40,876 nucleotides of DNA, from assembly GCA_903851045.1 (NCBI GenBank), contig CAINNF010000016.1:1-40876 (forward strand), read 5' to 3'. Source of the DNA: Candidatus Adlerbacteria bacterium. GTDB lineage: Bacteria > Patescibacteriota > Minisyncoccia > Phycocordibacterales > SBAW01. The notes below the pieces were generated by a model that did not search any database, was not told the origin of the DNA, and worked only from the letters and a program-made list of their open reading frames with translations. A program made the position numbers and the translations under genes. Shown here one piece after another: positions 6,363-28,713 of this stretch (position 1 is its first letter; each line of letters starts with the position of its first letter).

Positions 6363-6743
6363 ATGAAGCACATCGGCCAACACATGAGCAGTCTGCCGAC
6401 GAAGAAGGACCGTGCAACCGAACGGGGCGAACTCTTGTTGTACTTCATGCAGAAGCTCAACATGCCGCGCGGGCGTGACGGGATGCCACCCTTGACCATC
6501 GGGCGTATGGCGAAGACGCTTGAAGGGATCCCGACGCTCGACCTGTATTTTCTCAAGAGTATCTGCGATGATGCACAGCGGCGGGGCGACATCGACTCGT
6601 TCTCCAAGAAGTTCTGGTGGGAGATCAATCCGAAGAACCATACCGAAGAGGCGATCAAGAAGCGAAAGGACGAAGCGGCGAAAGGGGGAGGATACAAAAA
6701 ATTTACTCAAAAGAAAAAGACAGACGACTATTATGACGCGTGA
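6363..6743 (+). CDS. Conserved-looking protein of unknown function (126 aa)
   Basis: I prefer the ATG at 6363 to the track start at 6297 because an extended -10 (TGGTAGAAT, 6347-6355) ends 7 nt before it, consistent with a leaderless mRNA. The protein is basic and helical, with a Lys-rich tail (KKRKDEAAKGGGYKKFTQKKKTDDYY) that could contact nucleic acid. It overlaps murA by 11 nt, so the two are probably co-transcribed. I do not recognise the family. Confidence 0.75.
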   Translation: MKHIGQHMSSLPTKKDRATERGELLLYFMQKLNMPRGRDGMPPLTIGRMAKTLEGIPTLDLYFLKSICDDAQRRGDIDSFSKKFWWEINPKNHTEEAIKKRKDEAAKGGGYKKFTQKKKTDDYYDA

Positions 6744-8085
6744 AAAATTCGTGGTCGAAGGGCTGGGGGGCGCCAAGACGCTTCGTGGTGCGGTTGCCGT
6801 GCGCGGTGCGAAGAACGCAGCACTCAAATGTCTGGCCGCGAGCGTGTTGTTCGAAGATACGTTGGTGTGTACGAACGTGCCCGACATCGAGGATGTGCGA
6901 CGCATGGGCGAGTTGCTCCAAGTCGCGGGCGCTGAGGTCACGACAAAGGACGGTGTTGTTCGTGTGAGTCCTCCCGACTTCGCTCAAGCTACGTCGGGCA
7001 AGCCCAACTCTGCTGAGGCTACGTCGGGCAAGCCCTCAGCATGGAACACCTCGCTTGATCAGACTATTGCCAAGCGGATGCGCGCGTCGATCGTTATGAC
7101 CGGCCCGATGCTTGCGCGTATGGGCGAGGTGTCCTTCCCATACCCCGGTGGTTGCGTGCTTGGCGAGCGGCCGATCGACCTCTTTCTTGCGGGGTTCACC
7201 GCGCTTGGCGCAAAGATCGTCGAAGCAGATGACTTCTTTACGGTCCGTGCGCCGCAGGGGCTGCGTGGTGCGCACATCTTCCTTCCAATAGTATCGGTCG
7301 GCGCGACCGAGACGCTCATGTTCGCGGCGGCGCTCGCGCACGGCGAGACGATCCTCGAAAACGTCGCCATGGAGCCCGAGATCGTTGCCGAGGCAGAACT
7401 CCTCAATGCGTGTGGCGCACATATCGAGGGTGCAGGAAGTCCGACACTGCGCATCACTGGCACGGGCGGTGTACCGCTGAAGGCAAACGGCGCAGTATTC
7501 TCGATCATTCCCGACCGGCTTGAGGCGGGGAGCTTCCTTATTCTCGCGGCGCTCGCGGCCGAGGATGTGACCGTGACGAAGTGCGAGCCGAAACATCTCC
7601 AGGCGGTGACCTCGTCGCTTGCACGAGCGGGAGTGTCGCTGGAGATCGGTACCGACACTATCCGCGTGCGCGCGAGCGAGAAGCCCTACCAGAGCGTGTC
7701 GGTGCGCACCCACGAATACCCCGGCTTCCCGACCGACCTGCAGGCGCCGATGGCGGTGTTCCTCTCGCAGTGCGAAGGCGACGCGACCATCCTCGAGACG
7801 ATCTACGATGGCCGCTTTCGCTATGCTGAAGACCTGCGCCGGATGGATGCGGACATGACGGTCATGAACCCGCACCAAGTGCTTATCCGCGGCCCCCGAA
7901 AGCTGGAGCGAGCGAATCTCGAAAGCCCCGACATCCGCGCTGGCCTCGCGTACCTCATAGCCGCGATAATCGCCGAAGGCACGTCAAGTGTCGACAACGC
8001 CTACCTGATTGACCGTGGCTACGAACACATAGAAGACCGGCTCTCCAGCCTCGGGCTGCACATCAAACGCGAGAGTTCCAACTAG
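6733..8085 (+). CDS. murA: UDP-N-acetylglucosamine 1-carboxyvinyltransferase
   Basis: Transfers enolpyruvate from PEP to UDP-GlcNAc, the first committed step of peptidoglycan synthesis. The ATG at 6733 gives 450 aa. Landmarks: RGAKNAAL (24-31, with the substrate-binding K27 N28), the loop YPGGCVLGERPIDL with catalytic C141 (the Cys that fosfomycin modifies in most bacteria), FPTDLQAP, and IDRGYEHIEDRL near the end. A Cys-to-Asp change, which gives fosfomycin resistance in some phyla, is not present. About 20 residues (84-103) of repeated ATSGKP-type sequence are inserted before the catalytic loop; they come from an in-frame DNA repeat. Confidence 0.97.
   Translation: MTREKFVVEGLGGAKTLRGAVAVRGAKNAALKCLAASVLFEDTLVCTNVPDIEDVRRMGELLQVAGAEVTTKDGVVRVSPPDFAQATSGKPNSAEATSGKPSAWNTSLDQTIAKRMRASIVMTGPMLARMGEVSFPYPGGCVLGERPIDLFLAGFTALGAKIVEADDFFTVRAPQGLRGAHIFLPIVSVGATETLMFAAALAHGETILENVAMEPEIVAEAELLNACGAHIEGAGSPTLRITGTGGVPLKANGAVFSIIPDRLEAGSFLILAALAAEDVTVTKCEPKHLQAVTSSLARAGVSLEIGTDTIRVRASEKPYQSVSVRTHEYPGFPTDLQAPMAVFLSQCEGDATILETIYDGRFRYAEDLRRMDADMTVMNPHQVLIRGPRKLERANLESPDIRAGLAYLIAAIIAEGTSSVDNAYLIDRGYEHIEDRLSSLGLHIKRESSN
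6974..7035 (+). repeat. In-frame palindromic repeat inside murA
   Basis: The 18-mer GCTACGTCGGGCAAGCCC occurs at 6988-7005 and 7018-7035 with a 30-nt period, so the protein gains two 10-residue units. The preceding CCCGAC pairs with GTCGGG to form a hairpin. Typical MurA proteins lack this segment. Confidence 0.7.
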
Positions 8086-9757: not shown

Positions 9758-10408
9758 ATGCTCACGCATCACGCGTACTATATCGAGGGCTCGCTCACGC
9801 AGTTCGATGCCTATGTCGATGCTATTCGTACGAGCGAAGGCTACGAGGCGAGCGACCCGAACTTCGTCGCGCGCAAGTACGAGAAGTTCGGTATCGACGA
9901 GGCGCGCGCGCTCATCGAGCACGGTGCGCTCAAGAGTACCGGCTCGCGCGCCCTCTTCGTGGTCGCAACCTCCTCGATCACCTCGGAAGCGCAGCAAGCG
10001 CTTTTGAAGCTGCTTGAGGAACCACAGCAGGGGACGATCTTCGTGTTGCTCGTGCCTCACGGGATACTCCTGCCGACGCTGAGGTCGCGGTGTATGCAGC
10101 TTCCTCTGACCGTCGAGATGTCCGCTTCGACCGCGAACACCGCCCGAGAATTTTTATCATGGCCCTACAAGAAACGTAGTGACTGGATAGCGGTGACACT
10201 CAAAAAGGAAGAAGACGACTCGCGCGAATACGTGCGCGCCTTTTTGAACGATCTCGAAGCTGAACTCTATAAACGAATAGAGGACGGCAAGGATATTCGA
10301 GACGGTCTCCAAGAGATAGCCCACTTTCGCCAATACCTCGGCGACCGCTCCCCATCGCTAAAGATGATCCTCGAACACTTCGCCGCGACGTTGCCCCCGC
10401 TTCGCTAA
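9758..10408 (+). CDS. holB: DNA polymerase III delta-prime-like subunit
   Basis: A 216-aa protein carrying the clamp-loader signature EAQQALLKLLEEPQQGTIFVLLV...LLPTLRSRCM, typical of delta-prime (and DnaX). The N-terminal region where a Walker A loop would lie (YIEGSLTQFDAY) has none, so it should not bind ATP, as in other delta-prime subunits. It is short; the C-terminal collar domain is reduced. TAGAAT overlaps the mreB1 stop codon and ends 6 nt before the ATG, suggesting a leaderless start. The symbol is by similarity of role. Confidence 0.8.
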   Translation: MLTHHAYYIEGSLTQFDAYVDAIRTSEGYEASDPNFVARKYEKFGIDEARALIEHGALKSTGSRALFVVATSSITSEAQQALLKLLEEPQQGTIFVLLVPHGILLPTLRSRCMQLPLTVEMSASTANTAREFLSWPYKKRSDWIAVTLKKEEDDSREYVRAFLNDLEAELYKRIEDGKDIRDGLQEIAHFRQYLGDRSPSLKMILEHFAATLPPLR

Positions 10409-10430
10409 AGCTGTGCAGCGCAAGCCATCT

Positions 10431-11117
10431 ATGACCCCGAAGAAACTTACCGAGCGAAAAGAGCGGATACGGAAGCTTGACCGAGCGTTGCAGAAGCTTT
10501 TCCCGCGGGCGAAGATCGAGCTCAACTATTCGACGCCGTGGGAGTTGTTAGTGGCGGTCGAGTTAAGCGCACAATGCACCGACCGGATGGTGAACAAGAT
10601 CACGATGGAACTGTTCAAGACCTATCCAACACTCGATGACTATGTGAAGGCGGGCAAGACCGCCCCAGGAGTCGCGAAGTTCGAGCGGATGGTGAGGTCG
10701 AGCGGCTTCTATCACAACAAGACCAAGAACATTTTAGCAGCAGCAAAGATGGTCAAAGAGCGGTTTAGTGGCGAGGTGCCCAGGACGATCGAGGAGATGC
10801 TCATGATCCCTGGTGTGGCGCGCAAGACCGCGACCGTGGTGCTTGCCGAAGGCTTCGGTGTCATCGCTGGCGTTACGGTCGACACGCACGTCATCCGCTT
10901 CGTGCAACGCTTCGACCTCTCCGACCATAAGGACCCGATCCATATCGAGCGCGATTTAATGCAGCTCTTGCCGAAGAAGGAGTGGAAGCCGTTCGTGCAC
11001 CGTGTCATCTTCTATGGTCGCTACCTCGCACCAGCACGAGCATACGACACGTCGAAGGATCCGCTGATCAAAGTCTACCCACCCGCCGCGACGCACTTTC
11101 GGACACGTCCACAATGA
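10431..11117 (+). CDS. nth: Endonuclease III-like glycosylase/AP lyase without Fe-S cysteines
   Basis: A base-excision repair enzyme for oxidised pyrimidines. The helix-hairpin-helix MIPGVARKTATVVL holds the catalytic lysine (K132), and VTVDTHV supplies the aspartate (D151). The four cysteines that bind the [4Fe-4S] cluster are absent: where E. coli has HGRYTC...C..C.....C, this protein reads YGRYLAPARAYDTSKDPLIKVY. The only cysteine is C49. I use the ATG at 10431; a GTG at 10413 is also open. It follows the delta-prime gene closely and is probably co-transcribed. Confidence 0.92.
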   Translation: MTPKKLTERKERIRKLDRALQKLFPRAKIELNYSTPWELLVAVELSAQCTDRMVNKITMELFKTYPTLDDYVKAGKTAPGVAKFERMVRSSGFYHNKTKNILAAAKMVKERFSGEVPRTIEEMLMIPGVARKTATVVLAEGFGVIAGVTVDTHVIRFVQRFDLSDHKDPIHIERDLMQLLPKKEWKPFVHRVIFYGRYLAPARAYDTSKDPLIKVYPPAATHFRTRPQ

Positions 11118-25550: not shown

Positions 25551-27271
25551 ACAAAAGTGCGGCAACCATATTCATACGACGCATCAGAGTGTTGACCATT
25601 CTGTGCGTTTTGGCGGCGCTCACGATCGTCGGTCGTTTGTATATGCTGCAGATCGTACAGGGACATGCGTATGCGCAGCGGGCGAACGCGCAGTTCATCG
25701 AACCCGCGAGTCCTTTGATCGACCGCGGCAATATCTATTTTACCGACAAGAACGGTACGCACATCACCGCCGCGACCATCAAGGAAGGCTTCTCGCTTGC
25801 AGTGAATCCGACGAAAGTGAAGGACCCCGAGGCGCTGTTCGCGGCGATACAGAACGTGGTACCGATCAGTCACGACGACTTCATGGCGAAAGCGACGAAA
25901 CCTGGTAGTTCGTACCAGGTGGTCGCGCAGCACCTTGATGCGAACATCGGTCAAGCGCTCGAAAAAATGCAGCTTCCCGGACTGATCGTCGAGAACGATC
26001 GGTGGCGGTTGTACCCCGGGGGGTCGCTTGCGGCTCAGGAGATCGGGTTCGTCGCGTACAACGGTGATGCGCAAGAGGGGAGGTATGGACTCGAGCGTCT
26101 CTATAACCCGCTGCTCACTAAGGTTGATTCAGGGCTGTATAAGAACTTCTTCGTCGAACTTTTCGGGAGCGCACAATCGGCGCTCCAGGGTGACCCGCAA
26201 CAGGGGGATCTCATCACGACTATCGAACCAACAGTGCAGGCGGAGTTGGAGCGACAGCTTGCGATATATGACCAAACGTGGCACCCGAAACTGTCGGGAG
26301 GAATCATCATGAACCCGCAGACGGGCGAGATCATGGCGATGGCGGTGTATCCGACGTTCGACCTGAACGCCTTTAATGCCGAGCGCGACGCATCGATCTA
26401 CGCCAACCCATTGGTGCAGAACGTGTATGAGGTCGGGTCCATCATCAAGCCGCTCACGATGGCCGCGGGACTCGACTCGGGCGTGATCACTGCGACGTCG
26501 ACGTATACCGACACTGGGTGTATCACCGTCGACACCAAGAAGATCTGCAACTTCGATGGCAAGGCGCGCGGCGTCATCCCGATGCAGCAGATACTCAGTC
26601 AGTCGCTCAACGTGGGTGCGTCCTATATCGCGACGCAGATGAAACCGACCATCATGCGCGACTACTTTCTTAACCATTACGGTTTTGCGACGACGACGGG
26701 GATCGACCTGCCGGGTGAGGTGAAGGCGATCACTAATAATCTGAAAAGTTCGAGACAGGTGGAGTTCGATACGGCATCGTTCGGTCAGGGTATCGCACTG
26801 ACGCCGATCGAAACGGCCCGCGCTTTGTCCATTATCGCGAATGGTGGCCACTTGATAACGCCGCATTTGGTGAGTCAGGTCCATTATGACACCGGCATCA
26901 CACAGACCTTGCCGTGGAACACTACCCCCACACAGGTGCTCAAACCCCAGACGGCGCTCGAAGTGTCGCGTATGCTCACGACCGTCGTCGACCTGTCGTT
27001 GGCGAACGGGCAGGATAAGCTCGACCATTACAGCGTCGCGGCGAAGACGGGAACTGCGCAGATTGCGGACCCGGTGAACGGAGGGTACTATACCGACAAG
27101 TTCCTGCACAGTTTCTTCGGGTACTTCCCGTCATATGACGCGAAGTACATGATCTTCCTGTTCGCGCTGGAGCCGACCGGCGCACCGTATGCGTCCCAGA
27201 CCTTGGCACCGCCGTGGCACTCGCTCACCCAATTCCTCATTAATTACTACAACGTACCGCCAGACCGATGA
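25547..27271 (+). CDS. ftsI: Penicillin-binding protein 3 / FtsI (septal transpeptidase)
   Basis: A 574-aa class B PBP for septal cross-linking. One membrane helix (about 13-38), pedestal, then SIIK (about 297-300), SLN (about 351-353) and KTGTA (about 501-505). It begins with GTG overlapping the ftsL stop (GTGA) and ends overlapping the murF start (ATGA), so expression is tightly coupled. No PASTA domains are visible. Together with mrdA it gives one transpeptidase for septum and one for side wall. Confidence 0.94.
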   Translation: MNKSAATIFIRRIRVLTILCVLAALTIVGRLYMLQIVQGHAYAQRANAQFIEPASPLIDRGNIYFTDKNGTHITAATIKEGFSLAVNPTKVKDPEALFAAIQNVVPISHDDFMAKATKPGSSYQVVAQHLDANIGQALEKMQLPGLIVENDRWRLYPGGSLAAQEIGFVAYNGDAQEGRYGLERLYNPLLTKVDSGLYKNFFVELFGSAQSALQGDPQQGDLITTIEPTVQAELERQLAIYDQTWHPKLSGGIIMNPQTGEIMAMAVYPTFDLNAFNAERDASIYANPLVQNVYEVGSIIKPLTMAAGLDSGVITATSTYTDTGCITVDTKKICNFDGKARGVIPMQQILSQSLNVGASYIATQMKPTIMRDYFLNHYGFATTTGIDLPGEVKAITNNLKSSRQVEFDTASFGQGIALTPIETARALSIIANGGHLITPHLVSQVHYDTGITQTLPWNTTPTQVLKPQTALEVSRMLTTVVDLSLANGQDKLDHYSVAAKTGTAQIADPVNGGYYTDKFLHSFFGYFPSYDAKYMIFLFALEPTGAPYASQTLAPPWHSLTQFLINYYNVPPDR

Positions 27272-28713
27272 AAGACATTTTTAAAAGGATCATTGCTGCA
27301 ACACTTCGTTTCGAGGCGAAGCTGATACTCAAAAAGTACCGTCCGCGCATCATCGCGGTCACTGGGAGCGTGGGGAAGACATCGACCAAGGACGCTATCT
27401 TCGCGGTCCTCGCGGACGACAAGCATGTGCGCAAGAGCGATAAAAGTTTCAACAGCGAGATCGGGCTGCCGCTTACGATCATTGGTGTACCAAACGCCTG
27501 GAGCAACCCGTTGCGCTGGCTGCAGAACATCATGGATGGCCTGTTGCTCGTCCTCATTCGGACCGATTATCCGAAGTGGCTCGTGCTCGAAGTGGGCGCC
27601 GACCGACCGGGCGATATCAGTTCGCTTGCATCGTGGCTCTCGGTCGATGTGGCAGTGGTCACGCGACTACCCGAAGTACCGGTGCATGTCGAGTACTTCT
27701 CCTCGCCGGAGGAGGTAGCTGCGGAAAAAGCTTCGATCATCAACGCGTTGCATCCCGACGGTACACTGGTCGTGTATGCGGACGATGCTCGGGTCGATAT
27801 GTTACGCGAAAAAGCCCTCGCGAAAGGAGCACACGTTGTCACGTTCGGGTTATCGAGCACTGCCGATGTACAAGGCAGAGACTTCGCGCCATTTTCTCAA
27901 GAAGACACTGGCCCGTGGCCGGTTGGAATGCGGGCGACCATCATGATGGGCGAGGAGGGGTCGGTGTCGATCGCTGGCGTACTCGGATCGCCCGCCTTGT
28001 TGTCGGCCATTGCGGCTGCCGCGGTGGGGAAGGCGCTTGGAATGCGTGTCGACCAGATCACGCGGTCACTGGGTCGATACGAGCCACCCAACGGCCGTAT
28101 GCGCCTTTTGCCAGGGCTGAAGGGGTCGCTCATAATCGACGACACCTATAACTCGTCGCCTGCGGCTGTCGAGGCGGCGCTTGAGACGCTTCGTTCGATC
28201 AAGCGAAGCGCGTCTGGGAGCGCCATACCTGCGGATGGCATCACTCCCGTCCGGCGAATCGCGTCTGGGAGCGCCATACCTGCGGATGGCATCACTCCCG
28301 TCCGGCGGATTGCGTCTGGGAGCGCCATACCTGCGGATGGCATCACTCCCGTCCGGCGGATCGCCGTTCTGGGTGACATGCTTGAGCTTGGTCGGCATAG
28401 TGTCGATGAACATCGCAAGGTGGGTGCTTTGGTGGCGAAGTGTGCGGATATGCTCGTGACGGTCGGGTTTCGGGCGCGAGACATCGCTATTGGTGCGCTT
28501 GATGCCGGCATGGCAGATGGTGCTATCTTGCAGTATGAAGAAGCGTCGAAGGCGGGCGAAGAGTTGCAAGCGATGCTCGATGACCACGACTGCGTATTGG
28601 TGAAGGGTTCGCAAAGTATACGGACCGAGAAGATCGTCGAGCGTCTGATGCTCGAACCCGAAAAAGCCGAAGCCTTGTTGGTCCGACAAGAGGCGAATTG
28701 GCGACGACGCTAA
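27268..28713 (+). CDS. murF: MurF-type Mur ligase with in-frame repeat insert
   Basis: Adds D-Ala-D-Ala to UDP-MurNAc-tripeptide using ATP. VTGSVGKTSTKD (31-42) is the P-loop, and IIDDTYNSSPAAVEAAL and RIAVLGDMLELG are typical of MurF. Between RSIK and RIAVLGDM, which are normally nearly adjacent, lie three tandem copies of ASGSAIPADGITPVRRI (residues 315-365) encoded by a 51-nt DNA repeat. The frame is kept, so the protein is probably functional. The stop overlaps the peroxiredoxin stop on the other strand. Confidence 0.93.
   Translation: MKDIFKRIIAATLRFEAKLILKKYRPRIIAVTGSVGKTSTKDAIFAVLADDKHVRKSDKSFNSEIGLPLTIIGVPNAWSNPLRWLQNIMDGLLLVLIRTDYPKWLVLEVGADRPGDISSLASWLSVDVAVVTRLPEVPVHVEYFSSPEEVAAEKASIINALHPDGTLVVYADDARVDMLREKALAKGAHVVTFGLSSTADVQGRDFAPFSQEDTGPWPVGMRATIMMGEEGSVSIAGVLGSPALLSAIAAAAVGKALGMRVDQITRSLGRYEPPNGRMRLLPGLKGSLIIDDTYNSSPAAVEAALETLRSIKRSASGSAIPADGITPVRRIASGSAIPADGITPVRRIASGSAIPADGITPVRRIAVLGDMLELGRHSVDEHRKVGALVAKCADMLVTVGFRARDIAIGALDAGMADGAILQYEEASKAGEELQAMLDDHDCVLVKGSQSIRTEKIVERLMLEPEKAEALLVRQEANWRRR
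28210..28362 (+). repeat. Three tandem 51-nt palindromic repeats inside murF
   Basis: Units at 28210-28260, 28261-28311 and 28312-28362 are almost identical (differences only near the unit ends). Each contains the hairpin GGGAGCGCCAT ... ATGGCATCACTCCC. Because 51 is a multiple of three, each unit adds 17 residues without a frameshift. Confidence 0.95.

Follow-up and report, generated by a model that had tools for sequence, protein, structure and literature searches.

The murA gene of this Candidatus Adlerbacteria genome contains a segment in which, very probably, a 30-nt mobile palindromic element, non-autonomous and of the REP-like or RPE-like kind, stands twice in tandem. The gene occupies positions 6733-8085 (+ strand) of the window, i.e., of the whole 40,876-nt stretch of DNA that was analysed, and encodes a UDP-N-acetylglucosamine 1-carboxyvinyltransferase of 450 amino acids, as indicated by matches to TIGR01072 (449 bits versus a cut-off of 392.7), to the Pfam family EPSP_synthase and to MurA entries of the PDB. 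The first unit (CCCGACTTCGCTCAAGCTACGTCGGGCAAG, 6973-7002, + strand) is a complete palindromic element with all 12 core positions, the tail CAAG and all six pairs of an outer stem formed by CCCGAC (6973-6978) and GTCGGG (6993-6998), while the second (CCCAACTCTGCTGAGGCTACGTCGGGCAAG, 7003-7032, + strand) is a decayed copy that retains 9 of the 12 core positions, five of the six pairs and the same tail. Against a covariance model of the family, whose 43 training sequences include both murA units, they scored 47.4 bits (E 2e-9) and 35.1 bits (E 3e-6), respectively, and the match of the first lies far beyond chance. The two units are 83% identical, and GCTACGTCGGGCAAGCCC recurs in them with a period of 30 nt (6988-7005 and 7018-7035), so that both the period and the CCCGAC/GTCGGG pairing reported in the preliminary description hold. 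The string that it had singled out as the repeated part, CGTCGGGCAAGC, proved to be a poor marker: an exact search of the genome returned three hits, namely those in murA and one chance hit in another gene.

Comparison with other MurA proteins points to a recent event. The net coding insertion amounts to 60 nt on the + strand (residues DFAQATSGKPNSAEATSGKP), its edges being ambiguous through a repeated CCC and thus placed equally well at 6976-7035 or 6973-7032, and exactly 20 residues are missing opposite it in the closest of the aligned relatives. The earlier estimate of about 20 residues was therefore accurate, but their placement just before the catalytic loop was not, since the catalytic cysteine (residue 141) follows the insert by some 40 residues. 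In the DNA of the nearest congener (G030, with a MurA 81% identical), the empty site reads GTCACGCCG^CCCGAAACCTGG versus GTGAGTCCT^[60 nt]CCCTCAGCATGG in the present gene, the point of division having been placed by codon reading of the sequence. That the 20 residues are an old or functional feature of MurA, such as an adaptive loop of this lineage with the DNA repeat as a by-product, is highly improbable even though the insert leaves the frame open and the rest of murA is intact, because the insert is absent from all 29 aligned relatives (47-81% identical, the congener included), in none of which the sharing envisaged by the preliminary description as the opposing outcome was found, and because the same 30-nt DNA unit gives nearly the same peptide in the unrelated MetG of another family. 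As read from the sequences, a dispersed hairpin element has recently entered murA in frame, late enough that the nearest congener lacks it. No function is indicated for the added residues.

The architecture of the unit was derived from its copies. The consensus YCCNNC-TTCGCT-NN-AGCTWC-GNNGGR-CARG comprises 6+14+6+4 nt, i.e., a 6-bp outer stem enclosing the fixed core TTCGCT-NN-AGCTWC, and a 3' CARG tail, and in the folded hairpin the outer stem is followed by a 3x3 internal loop (TTC/TWC) and a GC-NNNN-GC tip. Since pairing stops sharply past the sixth pair and the tail follows directly, the unit length was set at 30 nt. The stem sequence varies between copies while complementarity is kept: among 43 aligned units, 54 double-change cells were counted versus 14.8 +/- 2.8 after shuffling (reached in 0 of 500 shuffles), and a wider set fitted to the model, whose alignment leans to the structure, gave 129 versus 38. 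The outer stem apparently matters by its structure and not by its sequence. In several genera (G307, G468, G555, G649, G544) one unit was found inside the loop of another, always at CGCT^AAAGC and with an inner stem that differs from the outer one, and deletion of 30 nt restores the outer copy. Because copies nest at this one fixed loop point, 30 nt can be taken as the unit of movement, and because 30 is a multiple of three, coding insertions stay in frame. Outside nested sites target preference is weak (GCT 5 observed versus 1.1 expected); a general preference for GCT was considered and discarded, as it is weak once redundancy is removed. The usual core is free of stops in four of six frames, and the unit-encoded peptides PDFAKATSGK, LPDEALAKSG, PSLKLRRAGK and ARRSFSEVG recur across long frames of different genes.

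About 24 copies were recovered from the source genome with the covariance model, in agreement with the idea, already put forward in the preliminary description, of a dispersed in-frame hairpin element. Hosts verified by protein family are murA and rnr (two units each), metG, nusA, uvrC, gyrB, rsmI, msrB, rpmE and ung, with the unit at the N-terminus in gyrB and at the C-terminus in rpmE; the exact limits of the insert are less clear for ung and nusA. Clean insertions of 10 residues are seen in metG (GWPE----------DEKNFEKFW without and GWPSSAEASAGEPASEGLFEKFW with the unit), in uvrC (YFFKK----------ARKILYIGKA without, YFFLRPAKPRRSGVGGREILYIGKA with) and, relative to PDB 2k8d, in msrB. In a Taylorbacteria genome, too, MetG contains a unit, at the site that it occupies in the metG studied here. 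Furthermore, the NusA of several species of the genus bears units (L233, L246, L256, L098) at about the same site and apparently in both orientations, and this site is apparently a tolerated hot spot. Within the window, a weak third unit (CCCCGCTTCGCTAAAGCTGTGCAGCGCAAG, 10395-10424, + strand; 20 bits, E 0.019), which falls below threshold in the genome-wide search, spans the junction of the genes at 9758-10408 and 10413-11117 (endonuclease III-like), and the upstream gene stops at the TAA of this degenerate unit.

The family is not confined to this genome. With up to two mismatches allowed, CGACTTCGCTCAAGCTACGTCGGG had matches in 3 of the 396 other genomes searched in the order and none in a control, and the family became visible only once the stem was allowed to vary: the covariance model (E up to 0.05) found matches in 19 of the 37 genomes searched, and a simple core pattern occurred in 99 of 287 genomes of the phylum versus about 20 for the reversed control. 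Copies are present across Patescibacteria, including 20 units in a Kazan genome, and in Planctomycetota (73, 35 and 21 copies in three genomes), Bacteroidota (35, 11 and 3 in three genomes) and Verrucomicrobiota (3 copies in a Haloferula genome). They are nearly all intergenic in four genomes (G468, G528, G530, G555), whereas over half lie within long frames in the window's genus, a rough estimate of coding share that counts open frames from 150 amino acids upwards, some doubtful ones included. Regular arrays of units also occur, with a spacing of 37 nt in Planctomycetota and 39 nt in Bacteroidia (L316, L319, L331). A subfamily in G002, apparently with an inner stem GCC/GGC, reads ALLRQGYEGQ in several genes (L247, L249, L251, L254), which suggests a separate burst.

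This distribution bears on a second explanation, in which local tandem duplication by slippage produced the murA repeat and the hairpin arose by chance. The units are indeed adjacent and 83% identical, and a neighbouring gene does carry a local tandem repeat: an array at 28203-28391 with 3.3 copies of a 51-bp repeat, inside a MurF-like frame (27268-28713), adds 17-residue repeats (RRIASGSAIPADGITPV) ahead of VLGDMLELG. The core of this array has no second site elsewhere in the source genome, and we rejected the array as a member of the 30-nt family; with it falls the earlier argument that unrelated hairpin repeats in two enzymes of one pathway attest to active spread, as the murF array is an unrelated local repeat. 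Slippage remains an improbable origin of the murA segment, only marginally less so than an old MurA feature, because each unit on its own matches a genome-wide, multi-phylum family by conserved core, covarying stem and tail; it may account for the number of units, but not for where the unit came from. The second unit differs from the first at five positions, all within the 5' half, and by itself it now folds poorly, while the RNA of both units could form one longer hairpin with a predicted energy of -23 kcal/mol. The second unit may be an older, decayed copy beside which a newer, intact one landed, or, alternatively, a tandem duplication may have been followed by decay.

Rickettsia offers the best-known palindromes inside protein genes, and the ends of IS200/IS605 transposons contain subterminal hairpins that Y1 transposases recognise in single-stranded form. 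The unit is a hairpin too, but it is gene-free and only 30 nt long, and the typical IS200 hairpins in these genomes have other sequences. With the Rickettsia palindromic elements (RPE) it shares the in-frame position inside protein genes, here conserved ones such as murA, metG, uvrC and msrB; it differs from them, going by their description, in host phylum, in its tag and in its constant 30 nt, RPE-1 being described as a longer insertion. REP sequences are palindromes of 20-40 bp with complementary stem changes and a short unpaired tag at one end, found singly or in clusters, with occasional in-frame intragenic copies that encode 20-30 residues and, in some genomes, with a Y1 gene flanked by copies (PMC3733652). 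As a dispersed short palindrome with a common consensus and a covarying stem, the unit corresponds to REPs in the broad sense, and it resembles REP/RAYT systems in its complementary stem changes, its end tag, its in-frame genic copies and, in Planctomycetota, a Y1 gene flanked by its copies. Its terminal unpaired tag is, however, CARG (CYTG on the other strand) and neither GTAG nor CGTC, the repeats RPE-4 and RPE-6 being of the CGTC kind (PMC3733652), and GWAG occurs in the internal loop only; because its tag differs from both, it was filed in neither REP super-family. Further differences from REPs are copy numbers in the tens and not the hundreds, the high genic share in the window's genus and the occurrence in several phyla. 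An Rfam search of the window returned only a tRNA, the RepRanger survey (PMC12306157) is silent on Patescibacteria, and no description of palindromic elements in CPR/Patescibacteria was found in the open literature, which is weak evidence of novelty.

How the unit moves is a matter of graded likelihood, its mobility itself being something that we infer from comparison. It would move as a folded single strand, perhaps mobilised in trans by a RAYT-type transposase (Y1/HUH), and would insert without target duplication; genic copies would persist only where the 10 added residues land in a tolerant surface loop. In one Planctomycetota genome (G701), the Y1 gene L306 lies between inverted units of 33 bits each, and two others (L309, L297) have weaker flanking units (16 bits, not significant alone), all of these units sitting in larger hairpins of like style; in another genome (G695), a Y1 gene has a unit on one side. 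Within the window's genus, a Y1 gene is present in 14 of 15 genomes with units versus 3 of 8 without (Fisher p 0.009, uncorrected for kinship), and at the level of the phylum in 13 of 17 versus 7 of 15 (p 0.08, likewise uncorrected). None of the Y1 genes examined in Patescibacteria proved to lie between inverted units, the unit hits there being isolated single ones near L266 and, partial, in L132; the one near L266 was dismissed as an element end, as it lies 274 nt upstream and the apparent ends are other hairpins. The Y1 gene examined in the source genome is flanked by a different palindrome, AGCAAGGCGTCGCCTTGCT, which stands on both sides of the RAYT-like Y1 gene L122 (G000:C19:65736-69020) and probably represents a second REP family of the source genome. 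Because the genome's own Y1 gene has this other palindrome and because units occur in the Kazan genome in the absence of any Y1 gene, we regard RAYT mobilisation as a tentative proposal for which the case is nearly balanced.

Several points favour a third explanation, spread without any transposase, whether by strand switching primed at the hairpin, by gene conversion or by uptake of unit-bearing DNA: the Y1 genes examined in Patescibacteria lack flanking units save for the isolated hits, Kazan carries units without a Y1 gene, and the CGTC REPs are likewise without a known transposase (PMC3733652). The constant 30-nt length and the constant nested insertion point argue instead for a defined enzyme, and Y1 genes between inverted units do exist in Planctomycetota, so that transposase-free spread appears rather unlikely, though far less so than slippage.

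Taken at its widest, the reading would be that of an undescribed, cross-phylum, frame-preserving 30-nt hairpin family with a CARG tag, which targets its own loop, is mobilised by RAYT and repeatedly supplies essential proteins of Patescibacteria with 10-residue modules; we consider this conceivable in all its parts, with slightly more doubt than conviction. The lifestyle of coding palindromes of the Rickettsia type is encountered here in Patescibacteria, whose genomes are very small, and in other phyla, with a unit of exactly ten codons. Clean empty-site comparisons in essential enzymes make it testable how well random insertions of 10 residues are tolerated and which enzyme mobilises the unit. 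Gene callers and homology models applied to Patescibacteria should allow for inserts of this kind. The murA gene is an example of how a small mobile DNA rewrites essential proteins while leaving the reading frame unbroken.
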